Below are positions 11,173 through 45,752 of a stretch of 64,000 nt of DNA, one piece after another (the stretch's first letter is position 1; each line of letters begins with the position of its first letter). The stretch comes from a virus. A program made the translations under genes and the position numbers. The stretch spans positions 1 to 64,000 of IMG/VR virus record IMGVR_UViG_3300044213_000170; one strand, 5' to 3'. Under the pieces are notes generated by a model that was not told where the DNA came from, ran no database searches, and was given only the letters and a program-made list of their open reading frames with translations.

Positions 11173-12582
11173 TCATTTATTTCTAATGATAGATAATCCA
11201 CACCCTGCAGGATTTGTACAGGTCTGTGACAAACTATATGAATCTCCGATACCCGTCTGTACAAGATTGACAGAATTTGTTCCACCGGCATTGACTAAAT
11301 TTAATACTGCACTATGGCTATTACCAGTTTGACTTATACTGGCATTATTGCTGTCACCATATAAATTAATAGATGCTAAATTGGAATTCCCATTTTGGAT
11401 TATAGTAGAAGTATTATTATTCCCGTTAATTAATCCGTAAGACTGATTATTATTTCCGGTTTGATTTACCGTTGATGTATTTGTATTTCCCGAGATATTA
11501 ATAATCGAACTATTAGATAAGCCTATTTGTGTGTTTGTGATGTTGTTATAATTTCCAGTTACGGTAGCACCTAGAATATTGAAATTACTGGGCGTCAATG
11601 ACTCTGCCGGAATACCAATGGTGTTGTAAGTATATCCTTGCCCACTATTTAATTTATTAGATGATCCATTTAATGTAATGTCTTGATAATTGCCATGGCC
11701 GCTTTGATCCAAAGTAAGATTATTTTCACTGCTCGCTGTTACTTGTTTAATATATACGCCATTATAATTATTTCCTGTATAAGGACTAACAGGTATAGTG
11801 TTGGGACCATTAACTGCATAAGACCATGTGGTAGTGCTAGCAGTAGTACTGGGGCCCGTTGTATTAGTAGTTGTATTATCGCTATATGTTGTGGTCGTTA
11901 TTTGTGTCGTTGTGGTCGTGGTTGTTATGGGAGTTGCAGTCCCCACTACCGTATATGTGGTGTTATTCCAACCAGAATTGTTAGTAGTTGTTATAGTCGA
12001 CCCCACTTGTGAATCGGTAGTGGTTGTATTATATGTAGATGTTCCTGTTACCGTTGGCGCCCAATAATCTGCAGAAGTGGCCAACATACTGCTAGGTATA
12101 ATTTCCCAATTATTGGTAGACGGATTAAACCAATATAACATGGCCACGGCCTCGCCGCCGTTTTCATAATACCAAAAATCCACCGGCACAACTTGGCCGC
12201 TGGTTAATGGAGTAGTTCCTGACCAAAATGTTGGGGCCTGCTCTCGCCAAGCATTTACAACTATAGAATTATTAATTTTTAATATAGAACCATCATCGGT
12301 TGATGTTCCGAAATAATATGTACCGGCCGACGCAGCTTTGAAGTATCCCGTAAAGTGAACAATTACTTGATCCACTCTTCCGCTATCCATAACCACTCCC
12401 GATCCCCAATTAAAATTCACAGTAGATACAATACCAGTAGTTAACGGAGTAGGATATGTTAAGGGATTGATACTAGGTGTTGCACCGGTCCCTATATATG
12501 TGGTATAATTTAATCCGGCGGATCCTGACGCCCAGCTGGCACTTGTTATAGAAAACAACAAAAATAGTAAAAATTTTTTCAT
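11173..12582 (-). CDS. Secreted PA14-domain protein with C-terminal curlin-type repeats
   Basis: The 469-residue protein has a signal peptide ending ASWASG. A PA14/GLEYA-like domain follows (about 20-165: TGYFKAASAGTYYFGTSTDDGSILKINN, then WYYENGGEAVAMLYW in strand order). A very Thr-rich linker (about 175-260) leads to Asn/Gln/Gly-rich repeats such as NTSTVNQTGNNNQ and NNASISQTGNSHS. These match the CsgA/curlin pattern in which Gln and Asn stack in a beta-solenoid amyloid. The stop is preceded by a Cys pair. It overlaps FecR by ATGA. It is probably a fibre-tip adhesin or minor subunit exported through CsgG. Confidence 0.85.
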   Translation of the reverse strand: MKKFLLFLLFSITSASWASGSAGLNYTTYIGTGATPSINPLTYPTPLTTGIVSTVNFNWGSGVVMDSGRVDQVIVHFTGYFKAASAGTYYFGTSTDDGSILKINNSIVVNAWREQAPTFWSGTTPLTSGQVVPVDFWYYENGGEAVAMLYWFNPSTNNWEIIPSSMLATSADYWAPTVTGTSTYNTTTTDSQVGSTITTTNNSGWNNTTYTVVGTATPITTTTTTTQITTTTYSDNTTTNTTGPSTTASTTTWSYAVNGPNTIPVSPYTGNNYNGVYIKQVTASSENNLTLDQSGHGNYQDITLNGSSNKLNSGQGYTYNTIGIPAESLTPSNFNILGATVTGNYNNITNTQIGLSNSSIINISGNTNTSTVNQTGNNNQSYGLINGNNNTSTIIQNGNSNLASINLYGDSNNASISQTGNSHSAVLNLVNAGGTNSVNLVQTGIGDSYSLSQTCTNPAGCGLSIIRNK

Positions 12583-13697
12583 TTATAACTTTGACTGATT
12601 ATTATAGAACCTTGCGGTTTTCCATAAACCCCACTAAAATTCATAGCATCGGTGATTCTGTCCTGAGTTACTACAACTAATACCTTCGTATCATTTGCCA
12701 AGGAAACGGCAGCAAAATTATTGCCGTTAGGACTTAGTCCCATCCACGCCCACCCAAGTTGATTTAAATTCGGGTTATCATTTTTATAGATGCGTACTAT
12801 GTGTTCGTCTACATTAACGCTGGATTTAACTGCTACTCCAGTATCTGTTAATTTTGTCAGTAGTGCCAATGCCGAGCTTTGATCTTCTTGTTCTTTCGCT
12901 GCTTGCTTTTGATTTGCTTGTTGTTGATCTTGAACGGTCTGAACCTCAGCTTCAGATAGTGTATTATCTTTTTTAATGTCGCCTGTTTTTTGTGCAGCAG
13001 ATTTAGCGGCCTGTGTAATTAACACCCCGGTGATTGTATTGGGCGGAGTAATTAACAAATTATTGCCTATCGGTGTGTTACTTAGATTTACTATAACCGG
13101 AGGCAATGGCGGAGTGGCTGCTGTTTCAACTATAGTTGCCTGATAAGGTTTATCTAATCTTATGTTCGTTGATCCGCTATTAACATCTATTTTACCACTG
13201 CCGCAACTAGTACCTTTTAAGTTTACTGTTTGTGGTAATTCGCAAGCAGGCATTAAAAGTACCATACTTTTACCAGTTTCGTCTACTGCCATAACAAAAT
13301 CAGTACCACGGACAGTGATTGTGGCAGTCGGTGTGTTAATTTTTACACTATTGGGATTATTATGTGCAATATTACCGGACACATATCGTACTGTACCGCT
13401 AGCGGCTTTAAGACTAAGTTTACCGCCTTGAGAATTTTTTGGATCGTAAACAAAATCATCAATGACGAGACTGGAATTTTCCGTTACCTTAACGGTAGTA
13501 TTATCTTTAAACCTAATATTTACTATACCGTTTTTAGTTTCGACTTTATCGTCGGTCTCTATTAGAGAGCCTTGAGTCACTATAATAGTTTGTTTCCCGC
13601 GTTTAATTACTGCACTACCCGAGAGTTCGACTACCGAACCTATGTCGGCATAAGCTACAGTGGCCAATAGCCAAAGCAACAAGAGCCAGTTTTTCAC
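12579..13697 (-). CDS. Secreted FecR-domain protein
   Basis: The 372-residue protein starts at a GTG (13697) with Shine-Dalgarno AAGGAG and has a signal peptide (LLLLWLLATVAYA). A FecR domain follows: VVELSGSAVIKRG, LIETDDKVETKNG, VNIRFKDNTTVKVTENS and TPTATITVRGTDF. The C-terminal half is a Gln/Lys/Ala-rich helical stretch (about 230-285) and a small beta domain. FecR domains are periplasmic sensors or scaffolds. No sigma factor is nearby, but a CHASE2 cyclase is, a pairing also seen in bacteria. It likely links fibre secretion to the cyclase. Confidence 0.88.
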   Translation of the reverse strand: MKNWLLLLWLLATVAYADIGSVVELSGSAVIKRGKQTIIVTQGSLIETDDKVETKNGIVNIRFKDNTTVKVTENSSLVIDDFVYDPKNSQGGKLSLKAASGTVRYVSGNIAHNNPNSVKINTPTATITVRGTDFVMAVDETGKSMVLLMPACELPQTVNLKGTSCGSGKIDVNSGSTNIRLDKPYQATIVETAATPPLPPVIVNLSNTPIGNNLLITPPNTITGVLITQAAKSAAQKTGDIKKDNTLSEAEVQTVQDQQQANQKQAAKEQEDQSSALALLTKLTDTGVAVKSSVNVDEHIVRIYKNDNPNLNQLGWAWMGLSPNGNNFAAVSLANDTKVLVVVTQDRITDAMNFSGVYGKPQGSIIISQSYK

Positions 13698-13706
13698 AAG
13701 AACTCC

Positions 13707-14510
13707 TTAGTGACTCTTCTGAATAATATTAAAGCTACCACCCGCAGCAACTGCCTGCACATTAGCGACATTACTGTATGTACCTGTTTGACTAACATTA
13801 AACGTAGTACTACCTGCGCCGGTTTGCGATAACACCAAACTGCTCAAACTTGCACTAGTTTGTGTCAAGTTAATAGTATTGTTATCGCTACTAGTCAAAT
13901 TAATCAATGCTTGTTGACCAGCAGTACTATTTTGTTGGATAGTAACAGTGTTACCACTACCTGTGGTATAAACAGCGGCTTGCAATGCAGGACCATTACC
14001 TGTATAGTTTAATCCGTTATTATTTCCAGTAAATCTAGCATCTAATGCCGCATTATTCGTATACGTAGAAGTTGCAGAACAACTAGTTGTTAATCCACAA
14101 CTTACGTTAGCAGTATTGCTATTGCCCAATTGTTGAAGATACACATTAGCTGCATTACCAGTGATCTTCATGGTATTAATGACGTTGTTATTTCCAGTTT
14201 GATCAATTGTAACAACCTGATTATTCCCATTCAGCACCATGCTGTTAATAGCGCCGCTGGAATCACTTCCTGCTCGGTTACTATTACCATCTTGATTGAT
14301 ACTTATAGTAGGTGAATTACCTGTTTGTTGCAAATAGATAATATTGGTTGTGCTAGCATTTAAACTGGCAGTTACACCGGCTGCAAAACGAGTTGTTGAC
14401 TCGGTTGTAATGGCAGGTGCGGATGCTTGAGTAGGTGCGGTAGGTGCTGTCTGTGCAAACACCGCGCCAAATATTGTACTAACCGCTAACGATAATAATT
14501 TTTTTATCAT
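13707..14510 (-). CDS. Curlin-repeat (CsgA/CsgB-like) secreted protein
   Basis: The 267-residue protein has a signal peptide ending VFAQ and a Thr/Ala/Pro-rich N-terminal segment. At least six imperfect curlin repeats follow in the pattern x-I/V-x-Q-x-G-x-x-N (for example TISINQDGNSNRA, VVTIDQTGNNNVI, NVYLQQLGNSNTA, FNVSQTGTYSN). This is the amyloid-forming beta-solenoid pattern of E. coli CsgA and CsgB. A Cys pair (CGLTTSC) interrupts the repeats. It has a good ribosome-binding site and sits directly after CsgG, as expected for the export substrate. It is longer than CsgA (about 150 residues). Confidence 0.87.
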   Translation of the reverse strand: MIKKLLSLAVSTIFGAVFAQTAPTAPTQASAPAITTESTTRFAAGVTASLNASTTNIIYLQQTGNSPTISINQDGNSNRAGSDSSGAINSMVLNGNNQVVTIDQTGNNNVINTMKITGNAANVYLQQLGNSNTANVSCGLTTSCSATSTYTNNAALDARFTGNNNGLNYTGNGPALQAAVYTTGSGNTVTIQQNSTAGQQALINLTSSDNNTINLTQTSASLSSLVLSQTGAGSTTFNVSQTGTYSNVANVQAVAAGGSFNIIQKSH

Positions 14511-14529
14511 GATATTTCCTTATAAGGTT

Positions 14530-15342
14530 TTACTCCCTCTCTTTTTCTTCCTTGAATTTCCATAGGCCTATGCTTTCGCCCTTCTTGATAAGCTCGACAA
14601 TTCCCTGTTCGATTGCTGATCGTAAAGCATAGTTTCCTGGTTCATTGAAAGTTTGACTGATGTCAAATTCGAATGTTTTGGTATTTTGATTATAAAATTT
14701 TAATCCGGTCATACCGTCCTGGGTACTTAACAAATTTTTCTCAATTGTGATACTTGTTAATACTTCTCCAGTCTGAACACTAACTAACCGTAAACTGATT
14801 ACCACTTGATCCTGCGTATACTGAGTGTAAGGGCCGATTCCCAATGTAGCGAATCCTGATCCCCCAGTCAGTACATTAGTATTGTAATCAATGATGCCGC
14901 CTTCTAAAATAACGCCTGCTAGTGTTAATGGCGGTAACATTTTGGCTTTTTCACCTTCATAGATTTCACGTGTTTGTTTAATCATTTGACGTTCTTTTAA
15001 CAAATTCTCTAAATTCACACGTTCTACTACCGTGAACCATTGACGATTTCCGGCTTCTTGAAGGCTTCTGATTAGGTAACTTTCGGCACCTTGAGTGACT
15101 GCGGTGCTGAATAAACTTAATGTTTGACTATTTTTGCGTTGGCCGGTCAAATCTTTAAATCCGTATACTGCTATGGCAATTTTAGGACCATCTGGTGCAG
15201 GCAAAGAATCGATTTCTTTTATAATTGTAACTGATTCTTTAGGCTGATCTTTGATGCTTAATTCGGTGAATGGTCGAATAGTGCTACAACCAATTATGGA
15301 ATTTAGTATTAGAGATGGTATAATTACTTTGATTAAGTTCAT
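14530..15342 (-). CDS. csgG: CsgG-like outer-membrane curli secretion lipoprotein
   Basis: The 270-residue protein has a lipoprotein signal with lipobox IIGC (Cys19). CsgG landmarks follow in order: LPAPDGPKIAIAVYGFKDLTGQ, FSTAVTQGAESYLI, WFTVVERVNLENLLKERQ, GVILEGGIIDYNTN, GFATLGIGPYTQY, ISLRLVSVQTGEVL and a C-terminal GLWKFK helix. CsgG forms a nine-fold outer-membrane channel exporting curlin subunits. Of the E. coli constriction residues, Phe56 (before STAV) is kept, whereas the Asn55 and Tyr51 positions appear to be Leu and Gln. It lies 10 bp from csgF, with the substrate gene next. Confidence 0.95.
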   Translation of the reverse strand: MNLIKVIIPSLILNSIIGCSTIRPFTELSIKDQPKESVTIIKEIDSLPAPDGPKIAIAVYGFKDLTGQRKNSQTLSLFSTAVTQGAESYLIRSLQEAGNRQWFTVVERVNLENLLKERQMIKQTREIYEGEKAKMLPPLTLAGVILEGGIIDYNTNVLTGGSGFATLGIGPYTQYTQDQVVISLRLVSVQTGEVLTSITIEKNLLSTQDGMTGLKFYNQNTKTFEFDISQTFNEPGNYALRSAIEQGIVELIKKGESIGLWKFKEEKERE

Positions 15343-15352
15343 TTATATCTCC

Positions 15353-15841
15353 TCAAAAACTAAAACTCGATATTGGTACAGTAATGGTCTGTGTTGGGCT
15401 AGCGTTTGGAATAAATGTTCCAGCAGAATTCTTTGTGCCATCGTATACAGTTAATGTAACAGACCCGTTGGACTTAACCCATTGTATTTGTTGGGCATCG
15501 CTGACCATAAAATTACCGCTAGTACAACTTGCGCCACCGCTGGATACACAGTCTTTAAATAAATTGTTTGTTAGTTGTGTGGCCAGCTGACTGTATACTT
15601 GACCTGTAAACAGGGCCATAAATTTAGCCAGCGGAGTATTTGCTGCTGCAGACTGGGCTGCAGCAGCATCTGCTGCGGCTTTTGAGTCAACCTGAGCCTT
15701 GGCTGTTTGACGCATTTGCTCCAAAGTCAACACTTGACTAGACCAACCGTTGCCGCTGAACGTTGGATCTTTAAACTGTTGTACTAAATCGGCATTTGAT
15801 ATTATTGGTGCAAATAATAACCCCACCAAGATCTTTCTCAT
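15353..15841 (-). CDS. csgF: CsgF-like curli assembly factor
   Basis: The protein has 162 residues from the ATG at 15841, which has GGAG six bases upstream and gives a proper signal peptide (MRKILVGLLFAPIISNA); in-frame starts upstream are unlikely. The mature N-terminus LVQQFKDPTFSGNGW matches the CsgF pattern F-[RK]-[ND]-P-x-F-x-G that inserts into the CsgG channel, and the end TITVPISSFSF matches the CsgF C-terminus. An Ala-rich helix and a Cys pair lie between. CsgF caps CsgG and couples secretion to nucleation. It is the first gene of the operon; a weak late-promoter-like CTAAATATT lies just upstream. Confidence 0.85.
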   Translation of the reverse strand: MRKILVGLLFAPIISNADLVQQFKDPTFSGNGWSSQVLTLEQMRQTAKAQVDSKAAADAAAAQSAAANTPLAKFMALFTGQVYSQLATQLTNNLFKDCVSSGGASCTSGNFMVSDAQQIQWVKSNGSVTLTVYDGTKNSAGTFIPNASPTQTITVPISSFSF

Positions 15842-15889
15842 ACTAAACTCCATAGTCACTTAAATATTTAGTGAAACTGTGATTTTTTA

Positions 15890-40783: not shown

Positions 40784-41295
40784 ATTAAGGTATCCCAGAT
40801 TTTATTATATTTAGCCGTTGTTAGAATTTTTGTAAATTCTGATTCTGCATTTTTTAACCTATAATAAGCTAGTTGAAATTTAGCTAATCGTATGTTATGT
40901 TCGACTTCGTCAGCATTTGCGTGATTTCTAATTCTATGTGCTAATATGATATAATCGGCACGCGACTTTGCTAATTCTAAGTCGGCTGATAATAATCTAG
41001 TAGATCTGGTAAATTTATGCAGTTTTTCGTAAGCCGAGTAGTAAATTGCTATTTGTTTATTCTGAAAATGATGTACTAACTTATCATCATTATATACTTT
41101 AGCTGTGCCGTCTTGTTGGATTTTAATATCAAAATTGCCAATACCATAATGTTGTTTGGAATATTCGATGCAAAATGCTTGCGGTTTGTTTTTTATTTTT
41201 GCGAGTTCGCTTTTGGCCCAGTTTTCTACTTGTTCAACTGGCAACTTTTTTGCTATTAATTTAGTGAGTTTTTCTTTTATAAACGACACAGCCAT
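40780..41295 (-). CDS. Unknown 171-residue protein
   Basis: The mostly helical basic protein has FDIKIQQDGTAKVYNDDKLVHHF, a small beta stretch, in the middle. Overlaps on both sides (ATGA-like with the next gene, 35 bp with the 70-residue gene) place it in a translational chain with the probable structural genes around it. Confidence 0.55.
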   Translation of the reverse strand: MAVSFIKEKLTKLIAKKLPVEQVENWAKSELAKIKNKPQAFCIEYSKQHYGIGNFDIKIQQDGTAKVYNDDKLVHHFQNKQIAIYYSAYEKLHKFTRSTRLLSADLELAKSRADYIILAHRIRNHANADEVEHNIRLAKFQLAYYRLKNAESEFTKILTTAKYNKIWDTLI

Positions 41296-41473
41296 TTTCT
41301 TTAACCCTTGTTAGTACATTCTTATTTACTAAATTGCTGGCCATGAGTTGTTGTCTTTGATCCAAGTCGCGCTTGAGCACAACCGGAGTGTGTTCGTCAA
41401 ACTTCAATAACAGATCTGATTCTTCGTTTGTGATTGCTACAGATAAACCGTGTGTTATTTCTAATATCTTCAT
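41261..41473 (-). CDS. Unknown 70-residue protein
   Basis: The small protein (MKILEITHGLSVAITNEESDLLLKF... then KRDLDQRQQLMASNLVNKNVLTRV) overlaps neighbours by 4 and 35 bp. The start MKILEIT resembles the leader-like starts of other virion genes here (MKLFEI, MKVNEV, MKIAEL), which may be a shared head-targeting or proteolysis signal. Confidence 0.55.
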   Translation of the reverse strand: MKILEITHGLSVAITNEESDLLLKFDEHTPVVLKRDLDQRQQLMASNLVNKNVLTRVKENGCVVYKRKTH

Positions 41474-42218: not shown

Positions 42219-43583
42219 TTAGTCTTTTTTCCACTGTTTTGTGGCGGTAAAGTTCTGCTTACTAAATTCTAATCTATCTACTAATTTTACTGCCCCGCCG
42301 TCATGACCAATGGCAACAAATCCTTCAGGTGCAGTTACTTTGTATCCGTCGTCTGTTTTAATAAACGTTCCGATACTCTCGACCTGTTGAATCTTACTGA
42401 GAATAGCTAGTTTTACTTCAATGATTCGTTTATATATAGCTAATACACCTAATAGTGTATTGCTATTATCTTCCATAAATTCTTCGTTTAAAACAATCTT
42501 TTCAATCCTGCGTAAAACTGCTACTTTAACTCCGCTGTCGACTAATGCGGTGTCCAACTGTTTTCTGGCAGAAGGCTCACGTGTGGCCATATATTGATGA
42601 ATTAAGTCTTCTTGTGGTTCTGTAAATTGACTTTGTTTCATTAGATCGTCGATGTCTTTTTCCATCTTACCACGATAATATGACATAAACTCTTGTAGGA
42701 ATTTAGTAGGCTCGCCTGTTTGTTCTCCGCCGCGAACTTTATTGTTGATGAATGGTTTAATATATTGACTGAATTCTGTGTTATTTAAAACAACATTAAA
42801 TTTTTCAGGACTAATCTTCTTTAATGTGTTGGCCGCTGCCCCCAATGTTCTGCCAATCGCACTATTTTCATCTGGGGTTAAACTTGCAATTCCCGTCAAA
42901 TCTTTATATGTTGCATCATCGAACCATACATCAGCATTGGGTTGTAATCCAGCTACACTTGCACCAAAACTGGCTCTCATTTCAGGTAAATTGGGACCTT
43001 CGTACTGGGTATGAAATATAATTCCCAATTTAGCACGAGCGATACGTTTACCTAACTCACTGGCTACAGGTACTGCGTATGTTATGGTATTGGGTTGAAA
43101 TACATGGCAGGGTTCACCATTGATGTCGACGGTTTGTAAGTCACCTTCTGTAAACATCAAATCCCCTTGTAACACATTGCCTATTCCTAATTTAGGCAAA
43201 TATTTTAGTGCTGCTTCTAATTTAGCCGCAAGACCTTCTTGTTGAGAATAAAATTTACGAATATCCGCAGATGACTTACACGCCTTGGGCTCAGTTTTAG
43301 CAAATACACTTTTTGTACCTACAAAAAACTTACCGTCCGCGGGATCTACTCCGCAAATAATTGCAGGTGCTCCGTCCCATTTAACTGTTACTTTTGTGTT
43401 AGTGCCTATGCCGTCGGCAAACATCTTACGTAGGCCTTCACAGTAGCTCAATGCTCGTTGTGCACCTTGATAGCCTTCGTTAAACACTAAATCTTCAATG
43501 TGTTCTAAGTGTACATTTTTGCCCTCTTTGCTTTCAAAGAGTTGCCATTGGGGTATTGACTTTTTAATTTCAAATAATTTCAT
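42219..43583 (-). CDS. DUF6267-like protein with ligase/nucleotidyltransferase motifs
   Basis: The 454-residue protein is of a type conserved in T4-like marine phages. I read a covalent-nucleotidyltransferase pattern: motif I VKWDGAP (Lys68), FFVGTKSVF near 86-94, LQGDLMF near 138-144, and near the C-terminus PEGFVAIG plus AVKLVDR, matching motifs IV and V of DNA/RNA ligases and capping enzymes. A roughly 270-residue helical insertion separates the halves. A ligase-like activity is inference. It overlaps the next gene by four bases. Confidence 0.7.
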   Translation of the reverse strand: MKLFEIKKSIPQWQLFESKEGKNVHLEHIEDLVFNEGYQGAQRALSYCEGLRKMFADGIGTNTKVTVKWDGAPAIICGVDPADGKFFVGTKSVFAKTEPKACKSSADIRKFYSQQEGLAAKLEAALKYLPKLGIGNVLQGDLMFTEGDLQTVDINGEPCHVFQPNTITYAVPVASELGKRIARAKLGIIFHTQYEGPNLPEMRASFGASVAGLQPNADVWFDDATYKDLTGIASLTPDENSAIGRTLGAAANTLKKISPEKFNVVLNNTEFSQYIKPFINNKVRGGEQTGEPTKFLQEFMSYYRGKMEKDIDDLMKQSQFTEPQEDLIHQYMATREPSARKQLDTALVDSGVKVAVLRRIEKIVLNEEFMEDNSNTLLGVLAIYKRIIEVKLAILSKIQQVESIGTFIKTDDGYKVTAPEGFVAIGHDGGAVKLVDRLEFSKQNFTATKQWKKD

Positions 43584-44005
43584 AATAAATGTAAGTATTG
43601 GTTTAGTATTGCAGCCTGGCCCGAAGAAACCTTAGAGTTCGGTCTATTCAATGGATGCCATTCGTCGAAGTCGTCTAATTCAAATCGTTGTTTGTCAACT
43701 TGTAATACAATAGGATGTCTTGCCAATAGTTTAACATTTGGTGGAAGACCTTGTTGCTGTTGTGTAGCAGCGGCAGGTCTCGGAGACATGCTTTGCTGAG
43801 ATGCGGCAGACTGTGTGGCTGTCGGGGATTTATATGCTAAGTTTGTGGGTGCGTGATAAAATCGATCGCTTTCGGCTTTTTGACTAGCTAGCCAACTGGC
43901 ATTAGTTTCTCCCGCCTTTGCGTTCGGACCGGATTTTCTGGCACCACCTCGCAATTGATTTACAAAATCGCCCAACCCTTCTTTAATTACTTCATTTACT
44001 TTCAT
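43580..44005 (-). CDS. Unknown protein with Gln/Ala-rich linker
   Basis: The 141-residue protein (MKVNEVIKEGLGDFVNQLRGGARK start, Gln/Ser/Pro-rich centre, ordered end VKLLARHPIVLQVDKQRFELDDFDEW) has the short MKxxEv start of several virion-type neighbours. It overlaps neighbouring genes on both sides. Probably a minor virion protein. Confidence 0.55.
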   Translation of the reverse strand: MKVNEVIKEGLGDFVNQLRGGARKSGPNAKAGETNASWLASQKAESDRFYHAPTNLAYKSPTATQSAASQQSMSPRPAAATQQQQGLPPNVKLLARHPIVLQVDKQRFELDDFDEWHPLNRPNSKVSSGQAAILNQYLHLL

Positions 44006-44306: not shown

Positions 44307-45752
44307 TTATTCTGTTTTCTTCAATCCTGCTAACATAGCTTTGAGCTTGGTATTATTTGCTTCACCGTGTACTGGTTTATCTAAACTCCAACCTTCCCTG
44401 GGCTGTGCTCGCTGAAACCCAGATTCAGGACTTCGATCATCATCACCGACTGTACTTTTTGGTTTAATTTGATTCATTATACTACCGACCTGTGGTTTAA
44501 TAGTACCAGGAGTTCCTTGCGCCTCTTCACCAGGATCGGTAATACGTAACGTTTCAATGTCGAAATCTAAGTCAACTTTCATACCAACACCGCTAGAACT
44601 ACGAGTTTTCATCAATTGAATCTGATATCTTCCACGTTCACGCATTGCTCTACTTGTAAAAATACCAAATACATTATCTGCGGTGTTAATTTTACTAATA
44701 CCGCCCGATATATGACTATGATCAAATTCAATTTCTTCCACTGCACTACGATTTAACTGACTGGCTGTGACCATTAAAATTTGAAATTCACGGGCCAGAT
44801 TACGCAATTCTTCAGACACATATTTGTCTTTAACAAATAAATCATTTGGACTAACTTTGGCACTAACTGGCATTACCAAATCCAAATAGTCCACCATAAT
44901 AAAGTCAGTTTTACGTCCGGTTTGTACTTCGAGTTCTTTAAGATATGCACGAATTTGATTTACGTTGCTTTGTGCTGGCATATACTTAATACGTAAATTA
45001 CCTGATTTTTTGCCTGCCATTTTCACTTTAAGTTCAACAGTTTCCATATCCTTAAATACTTCTCTTGTACTAACATTGGCTACCATACTATCCATGCGCA
45101 TAGCACACAATTCTTCACTGAGTTCTAATGTAAGAAATACCCCGTTAAGTCCTTGAGTGACCCAATTAATTGCAATATTTTGCATAAACAATGACTTGCC
45201 TGATCCTGACCCGCCTGCAAAAATATTCAATTCGCCGCGATTCATGCCGCCAAATAAACGCTTATCTAAGGTTGGCCAGCCTGTGCTAACTTGACCATTA
45301 TTATCTTTAATTTTCATTAACCTGGATCTAGGATCAGCAAAATATTCTGTACCCATATCTTTAGTTAAACTGATTTGCACTGCGTCTTTAATGAGTTTTT
45401 CCACCGGATCAAAATCGCCTTTTTCAATCATATCGGCGGCTTTGAGGATAGCTCTTTCTAATTCTTGTTTTTTAGTGAACCCTTCGAATTCACTCATAAA
45501 CCAGTCATAATGATTGTCGCCTAAGTCGGGTACCGGTTTAAGTTCAGTCCCTGTTACTGCTGCTAACTGATCCCTAGTGGGCATTGCTTTATATTGTTCT
45601 ACATGATCTTTAATAAACGTTGCCACAGGTCGTAGACTGCGATCAAAGTTTTCTGGATTGTAAATATTTTGCACTCGCAGATAACTTTCTGCATTTTGCA
45701 TCATCATTTCTAAAAATAGCTTTTGTAAGTCCTGCGAGTATTCTTTTGTCAT
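44307..45752 (-). CDS. gp41: Replicative DNA helicase, gp41/DnaB type
   Basis: The 481-residue protein has an N-terminal helical domain and a RecA-like core: Walker A GGSGSGKS, FLTLELSEELCAMRMD, Walker B IMVDYLDLV and LMVTASQLNRSA with its sensor Gln, then MKTRSSSGVG. It unwinds the fork 5' to 3' and partners the primase encoded immediately upstream, with which it overlaps by four bases. No intein is seen in it. Confidence 0.95.
   Translation of the reverse strand: MTKEYSQDLQKLFLEMMMQNAESYLRVQNIYNPENFDRSLRPVATFIKDHVEQYKAMPTRDQLAAVTGTELKPVPDLGDNHYDWFMSEFEGFTKKQELERAILKAADMIEKGDFDPVEKLIKDAVQISLTKDMGTEYFADPRSRLMKIKDNNGQVSTGWPTLDKRLFGGMNRGELNIFAGGSGSGKSLFMQNIAINWVTQGLNGVFLTLELSEELCAMRMDSMVANVSTREVFKDMETVELKVKMAGKKSGNLRIKYMPAQSNVNQIRAYLKELEVQTGRKTDFIMVDYLDLVMPVSAKVSPNDLFVKDKYVSEELRNLAREFQILMVTASQLNRSAVEEIEFDHSHISGGISKINTADNVFGIFTSRAMRERGRYQIQLMKTRSSSGVGMKVDLDFDIETLRITDPGEEAQGTPGTIKPQVGSIMNQIKPKSTVGDDDRSPESGFQRAQPREGWSLDKPVHGEANNTKLKAMLAGLKKTE

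Follow-up and report, generated by a model that had tools for sequence, protein, structure and literature searches.

What enzyme, if any, is encoded by a gene that hundreds of phages share and that sequence searches leave without a function? We asked this of an open reading frame (ORF) of 454 amino acids (aa) on the minus strand of a 64,000-nucleotide stretch of viral DNA, here called the window, which comprises positions 1 to 64,000 of the 145400-bp IMG/VR record IMGVR_UViG_3300044213_000170. The ORF is a full-length member of Pfam family PF19782 (DUF6267), with E=6.4e-109 and 365 bits against a curated cut-off of 27, and it matches phrog_455 (function not assigned) with E=1.8e-114. A full-text literature search found no paper naming DUF6267 or phrog_455, and PDB sequence searches, NCBIfam, Pfam beyond DUF6267 and PADLOC returned nothing useful for the 454-aa protein. 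Computational analysis nevertheless gives DUF6267 the predicted fold of nucleic-acid ligases and an invariant active site. On the predicted structures, the family is best read as a previously unrecognised, divergent group of ligase-type lysyl-NMP (nucleoside monophosphate) transferases that lack an OB domain, carry Asp in motif III and have an altered motif V.

DUF6267 is present in 464 phage records, mainly of T4-like cyanophages, plus hundreds of uncultivated viruses, and hardly any known T4-like virus of marine cyanobacteria lacks it; in the records of Syn1 and S-SM1 the family's proteins bear the cluster name T4-GC71. It was not found in T4 nor in 11 T4 relatives. The start codon of the window's gene overlaps the upstream gene's stop as ATGA, an arrangement seen also in several relatives, so the N-terminus of the 454-aa protein is reliable. 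Relatives for comparison were drawn from IMG/VR, metagenome-assembled genomes, distant compact members of cyanophage type and annotated isolates.

Conservation of the active-site motifs

A first-pass annotation of the window, made from the letters alone, had proposed that KWDG, FFVGTKS, LQGDLMF, EGFVAIG and VKLVDR supply motifs I, III, IV and V of a covalent nucleotidyltransferase. All five motifs are present in the translation of the gene (LQGDLMF at residues 138-144; the others are in Table 1), but their numbering had to be adjusted. KWDG is motif I, LQGDLMF motif III, EGFVAIG motif IV and VKLVDR motif V, with the strand IIFHTQY in the place of motif IIIa. FFVGTKS forms the strand after motif I, which we take to correspond to the KRTG region of T4 Rnl2.

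Conservation was measured in 61 representatives and then in an alignment of 86 sequences that added the compact cyanophage forms. Residues D70, G71, K91, D141, Y169, H191, T192, Y194, N280, K391, E420, G421, K433, R437 and N444 were conserved in all 86, which shows that the motifs did not arise by chance. The annotation had named the loss of Lys68 in relatives as a result that would count against its proposal. Lys68 was present in 85 of the 86 aligned sequences, and the sole gap was P-TIM68 (KM359505; L186:3001-3120), whose GenBank start lies too late, inside motif I; the in-frame upstream DNA encodes KMDG, and with this start corrected Lys68 is invariant. In the same alignment, compact relatives show textbook motifs, among them KIDG (in many), GDFIG, EGYV and FKLVNR. 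The family departs from textbook ligases in two constant ways. Motif III has Asp in place of Glu, and motif V reads K-L-V-[DN]-R, in which residue 435, the place of the second basic residue of KxK or KxR, is V or I and an invariant Arg stands at 437.

Table 1. Coordinates of the DUF6267 gene, its motifs and its neighbours in the window
Feature	Position	Strand	Basis or remark
DUF6267 gene, 454 aa, predicted ligase-type covalent nucleotidyltransferase	42219..43583	-	PF19782, phrog_455, fold
Leader MKLFEIKKSIPQWQLFE (residues 1-17), candidate capsid-targeting/prohead-protease propeptide, variant type	43533..43583	-	disordered in model
HLEHIED (residues 25-31), family signature HLEHxED	43491..43511	-	H25, H28, E30, D31 at least 96% conserved, 86 sequences
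Motif I KWDG (68-71), Lys68 the predicted nucleotidyl-lysine	43371..43382	-	invariant once P-TIM68 start corrected
FFVGTKS (86-92), strand after motif I	43308..43328	-	K91 invariant
Motif III QGDLMF (139-144)	43152..43169	-	D141 invariant, Asp replacing usual Glu
IIFHTQY (188-194), strand in motif IIIa place	43002..43022	-	H191, T192, Y194 invariant
Helical insert (residues 237-399) between motifs IIIa and IV	42387..42875	-	model secondary structure; shortened in 294-aa compact forms; N280, K391 invariant
Motif IV EGFVAIG (420-426)	42306..42326	-	E420, G421 invariant; V423 98%
Motif V VKLVDR (432-437)	42273..42290	-	K433, R437 invariant; second motif-V Lys absent
Upstream gene, 141 aa, ATGA overlap, CTS (capsid-targeting sequence)-like leader MKVNEVIKEG	43580..44005	-	-1 homologues carry MKINEIIVE-type leaders
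gp41/DnaB-like replicative helicase	44307..45752	-	phrog_19 E=1.3e-74
Predicted virion structural protein, 70 aa, start MKILEI (MK..E[IV] type)	41261..41473	-	phrog_16215 E=5e-7

Predicted fold

The window's protein was modelled with a predicted local distance difference test (pLDDT) score of 81.5 and a predicted template-modelling (pTM) score of 0.73. Foldseek gave no significant match with this 454-aa model because its long helices dominate, and a compact natural relative was therefore folded instead. This member of 294 aa (L276:707-1588), which lacks most of the helical insert, was modelled with AlphaFold2 on 47 relatives, so that the insert was removed without altering any sequence, and the resulting model was confident (pLDDT 92.6, pTM 0.87). 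All 50 rows listed for it by VIA-align were ligases of the covalent nucleotidyltransferase superfamily, comprising RNA, tRNA and DNA ligases. Naegleria RNA ligase (Z 8.2-9.1, 3.8-4.1 A over 179-186 residues) headed the list, with T4 Rnl1 (Z up to 8.5) also among its leaders, and T4 Rnl2 was matched at Z 7.1-7.3. Foldseek rows 1-12 (E 0.02-0.4) likewise held nothing but ATP-dependent ligases of DNA or RNA, with DNA ligases in the first eight. In the VIA-align ranges (model 2-288 against chain 143-339), K33, E262 and K274 of the compact member fall within a few residues of the three positions mutated in the Naegleria entries (K170, E312 and K326). When the 454-aa model was re-aligned by VIA-align, RNA ligases came first: Naegleria RNA ligase (Z 7.1-7.5 over ~184 residues), T. 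brucei REL1, T4 Rnl1 and T4 Rnl2 outranked almost all of the noise from helical bundles.

The predicted structures thus match RNA or DNA ligases, where a model lacking the nucleotidyltransferase fold would have spoken against the first-pass annotation; this fold and the invariant Lys68 support its assignment of the family to the covalent nucleotidyltransferases. Its further suggestion, that a long insertion hides the relation from simple searches, holds in part. Residues 237-399 do form a helical insert, which is shorter in compact members, but the compact form was still missed by Pfam (including the RNA_ligase model), PDB-sequence and profile-profile searches, so general divergence matters besides the insert. 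A C-terminal OB domain with motif VI was not found, the compact member having only ~15-20 residues, a short helix, after motif V.

N-terminal leader and virion evidence

Residues 1-25 of the window's protein have pLDDT <50, and they begin with a variant leader, MKLFEI...[hydrophobic]xE[SAG], that is found in 26/26 members of the window's clade. Leaders of other DUF6267 members include MNFTEYLTEG, MKSYKQFLVEA and MYSFKQYLNEA; T4 IPII and IPIII start MKTYQEFIAEA. In the T4 CTS, targeting is governed by residues 4 and 7, and processing by residues 8 and 10 (PMC9026906). A regular expression demanding this same spacing matched 25 of the 34 DUF6267 members outside the window's clade, against a background of 17/498 ORFs in three genomes (Fisher p ~2e-16 with all 60 members, a value that overstates independence because the members are kin). 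In T4 it had nine matches, including the head-associated ipII, ipIII, Alt, gp24 and gp2, and among the compact cyanophage DUF6267 forms the leader was present in 0/60. An MK..E[IV] start occurs in 6 of the 175 ORFs of the window's genome, including the upstream neighbour and the predicted virion protein of Table 1. Judged from the sequence, the window's protein probably carries a T4-like head-loading tag.

Leaders are also common to genes neighbouring DUF6267, which encode enzymes of HAD and adenylate-kinase type, cytidylyltransferases (MKKFSAFLNEAE, MKNFSSFLTEAD and MRFRQFIIEAV in the syntenic cassette) and small basic proteins. Purified virions of S-SM1 (PMC3037559), S-CREM2 (PMC10665884) and S-SZBM1 (PMC9146016) contain leader-bearing cytidylyltransferases, and for S-CRM01 a protein kinase has been reported among the virion proteins (PMC10665884); the authors caution that proteins abundant during infection can contaminate virions. 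The S-CRM01 kinase gene lying two places after DUF6267 has a leader, and the minimal nucleotidyltransferase gp156 of S-CREM2 is in the virion list. Together, the leader and a syntenic cassette holding the virion-found cytidylyltransferase and kinase suggest that in leader-bearing lineages the DUF6267 enzyme is ejected with the DNA.

Two virion proteins were considered as possible DUF6267 members and set aside. S-CREM2 gp160 is of similar size and is not DUF6267, and S-SZBM1_139, which adjoins the cytidylyltransferase, is the gene on its other side.

A gp21-type prohead protease, as would be expected for T4-type capsid targeting, is annotated in HTVC008M and S-SZBM1. The window's record has a T4-like helicase, primase, UvsX, terminase and sheath, and either the head proteins of this lineage escaped recognition or the record is incomplete.

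Gene neighbourhood and additional observations

In most relatives a helicase gene, which in annotated phages is gp41, is situated upstream of DUF6267. The cytidylyltransferase gene follows DUF6267 in cyanophages, whereas HTVC008M and Melnitz have it two or three genes further downstream. Among the neighbours, the kinases fit adenylate-kinase and zeta-toxin models, and the HAD proteins fit models of acid-phosphatase type; neither matches polynucleotide kinase, and a strict reading of the neighbourhood as a Pnkp-like kit was toned down on this ground.

Several further features of these loci were observed. The leader-bearing kinase of S-CRM01 (L196:7679-10144) weakly matches PADLOC PD-T4-6 kinase models. 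Pol-beta-type minimal nucleotidyltransferases occur near the cytidylyltransferase (L198:4013-4726 and L196:12215-12943; NTP_transf_2 E 3e-4 for S-CREM2 gp156). Small lysine-rich proteins reminiscent of T4 basic internal proteins are encoded directly after DUF6267 in Melnitz and C48C1 (L313:7218-7610 and L314:6227-6598), and that of C48C1 has a clear CTS-like leader. N-terminally extended DUF6267 ORFs of 521-710 aa were also seen (L106:3236-5248, L113:2053-3615 and L116:3104-5233); those in L106 and L116 resemble fusions with the upstream gene and begin with leader-like sequence. In S-PM2, a 591-aa protein named cytidyltransferase-like matches the DUF6267 model across 439 columns, which suggests from sequence a fusion involving DUF6267. 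Apart from this gene, the window holds curli-type genes on the minus strand at 11173-15859, encoding CsgG (PF03783 E 1.8e-47), CsgF (PF10614 E 4.7e-9) and a PA14 plus curlin-repeat protein; HTVC008M has annotated CsgF, CsgG and CsgB.

Discussion

As far as the models can tell, DUF6267 is very probably an active covalent nucleotidyltransferase. Lys68 of the KxDG motif would attack ATP to form enzyme-lysyl-AMP, in a pocket predicted to be lined by Asp70, Lys91, Asp141, Glu420, Lys433 and Arg437; the AMP would then be passed to a 5'-phosphorylated nucleic-acid end, and the end sealed. The helical insert, with its invariant Asn280 and Lys391, probably grips the substrate. We infer both ATP as the donor and, with less assurance than the chemistry, a polynucleotide as the substrate, so that DUF6267 would likely be a polynucleotide ligase; RNA is somewhat more likely than DNA as the acceptor. 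In leader-bearing lineages, the enzyme may be made with the N-terminal targeting peptide, packaged in the prohead and trimmed after a Glu, then ejected with the genome and the neighbouring leader-bearing enzymes, and it could act in the first minutes of infection by repairing RNA or DNA cut by the host. A single-domain, ATP-dependent, ligase-type enzyme that is packaged in leader-bearing lineages is, in our judgement, the best overall explanation, and one that we hold with good confidence. For packaging taken by itself, we lean towards it in clades with the strict leader. In the window's own clade it is nearly as plausible as its opposite, the estimate being lower because the leader there is a variant and no T4-type protease, capsid or portal was found. 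The leaderless cyanophage versions are probably not packaged.

Several observations weigh against this explanation. The Foldseek E-values exceed 0.01, so that no single row is significant, and Z values of 8-9 are modest by VIA-align's own scale; the argument for a ligase fold accordingly comes from the unanimity of the match list rather than from any single score. An hhalign comparison with T4 Rnl2 relatives (n=15) was not significant, reaching a probability of 0.3 with shallow profiles and aligning EGYV alone. Motif III has Asp instead of Glu, and motif V has no second Lys. On the side of packaging, kinship inflates the leader statistic and the leader of the window's clade is a variant form. 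No match to a T4-type prohead protease, capsid or portal was obtained in the window's record with Pfam Gp23 and the S77 protease model or with the corresponding three proteins of HTVC008M. A DUF6267 protein is yet to be reported from a virion, and no virion proteome of a leader-bearing phage was found. The virion table of S-SZBM1 lists 139 and 140 but not the leaderless DUF6267 copy next to them (SSZBM1_141), an absence that fits the leader idea without proving it.

DUF6267 might instead stand in for T4 gp30, as the DNA ligase that marine T4-like phages produce in the infected cell for replication or repair. This would agree with its synteny with uvsX, gp41 and mazG in cyanophages, HTVC008M and Melnitz, with the DNA ligases in the first eight Foldseek rows and with the leaderless cyanophage forms. 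It would also agree with a scan of other ligases, which first covered ten DUF6267 phages (nine isolates and the window's phage): nine had no recognisable ATP-dependent DNA ligase and none of the ten had an NAD ligase or an Rnl-type RNA ligase, whereas T4, which like its 11 relatives is without DUF6267, matched ATP DNA ligase and RNA ligase models in the same scan. However, a PF01068 DNA ligase accompanies DUF6267 in all four window-clade contigs longer than 100 kb and in S-CRM01 (none was seen in the window's own 145-kb record, which may be incomplete). Its presence in the window's own clade weakens the idea of a simple replacement, and together with S-CRM01 it means that replacing gp30 cannot be the general role, although such a replacement is possible in cyanophages. 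In VIA-align, moreover, RNA ligases rank higher than DNA ligases, the protein has no OB domain and many lineages have a packaging-type leader, and we therefore regard a dedicated DNA ligase as unlikely.

Less probable still is a modifying enzyme with a role like that of T4 Alt, which would use lysyl-NMP chemistry to AMPylate or GMPylate proteins or small molecules. The leader is of the type found in Alt, the neighbours include kinases and cytidylyltransferases and not just nucleic-acid enzymes, and motifs III and V are variant; the close structural matches, however, all act on polynucleotide ends. The same altered motifs, and a cassette shared with virion-associated proteins, could also be expected of a catalytically dead ligase relative with a structural role in the head or in DNA packaging. 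We consider this very improbable, as the catalytic residues are among the most conserved positions of the family, the opposite of what loss of catalysis predicts.

A ligase-type enzyme thus remains the preferred reading. Placement in the ligase superfamily gives a family without an assigned function an immediately testable chemistry, the formation of lysyl-AMP at Lys68, and makes DUF6267 a candidate for the ligase that the majority of the marine T4-like genomes examined apparently lack. Should leader-bearing forms prove to be packaged, we know of no earlier case of a ligase-type enzyme delivered together with phage DNA, and proteins injected by marine phages could then be listed from sequence alone by means of the shared leader. 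More speculatively, and on balance doubtfully, DUF6267 may found a new family of RNA/DNA ligases. T4-like phages that infect abundant marine bacteria would carry it in their heads along with kinases, phosphatases, cytidylyltransferases and minimal nucleotidyltransferases, as an ejected end-repair and modification kit that undoes host nuclease attack before phage gene expression.

Comparison with known systems

In many DUF6267 members, the short N-terminal leader (hydrophobic-xx-hydrophobic-hydrophobic-x-E) is shared with the T4 internal proteins and Alt and would work in the same way if the enzyme is packaged. The mature domains are unrelated, packaging is a proposal for DUF6267, and in the window's clade the leader is of the variant type and a T4 protease was not recognised. 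Among the ligases, T4 RNA ligase 1 (gp63, RnlA) is likewise phage-encoded and has in common with DUF6267 an OB-less nucleotidyltransferase domain and the EGYV and FK motifs, but it has its own C-terminal domain, there is no detectable sequence similarity between the two and nothing here suggests that Rnl1 is packaged. The T4 RNA ligase 2 (RnlB) family shares the fold and the Kx[HD]G and EGYV motifs, and differs in its C-terminal domain, its KxK motif V and the lack of a significant hhalign match. The Naegleria gruberi RNA ligase (5COT, 6VT0 and related entries) agrees with DUF6267 in the nucleotidyltransferase fold, the order of motifs I-V and the register of catalytic residues. It has an extra N-terminal domain before residue 143, whereas DUF6267 has the helical insert, the motif III Asp and no second motif-V Lys. 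The superfamily and its chemistry are therefore known, and what is new is the recognition of the family, its constant motif changes and a possible new use.
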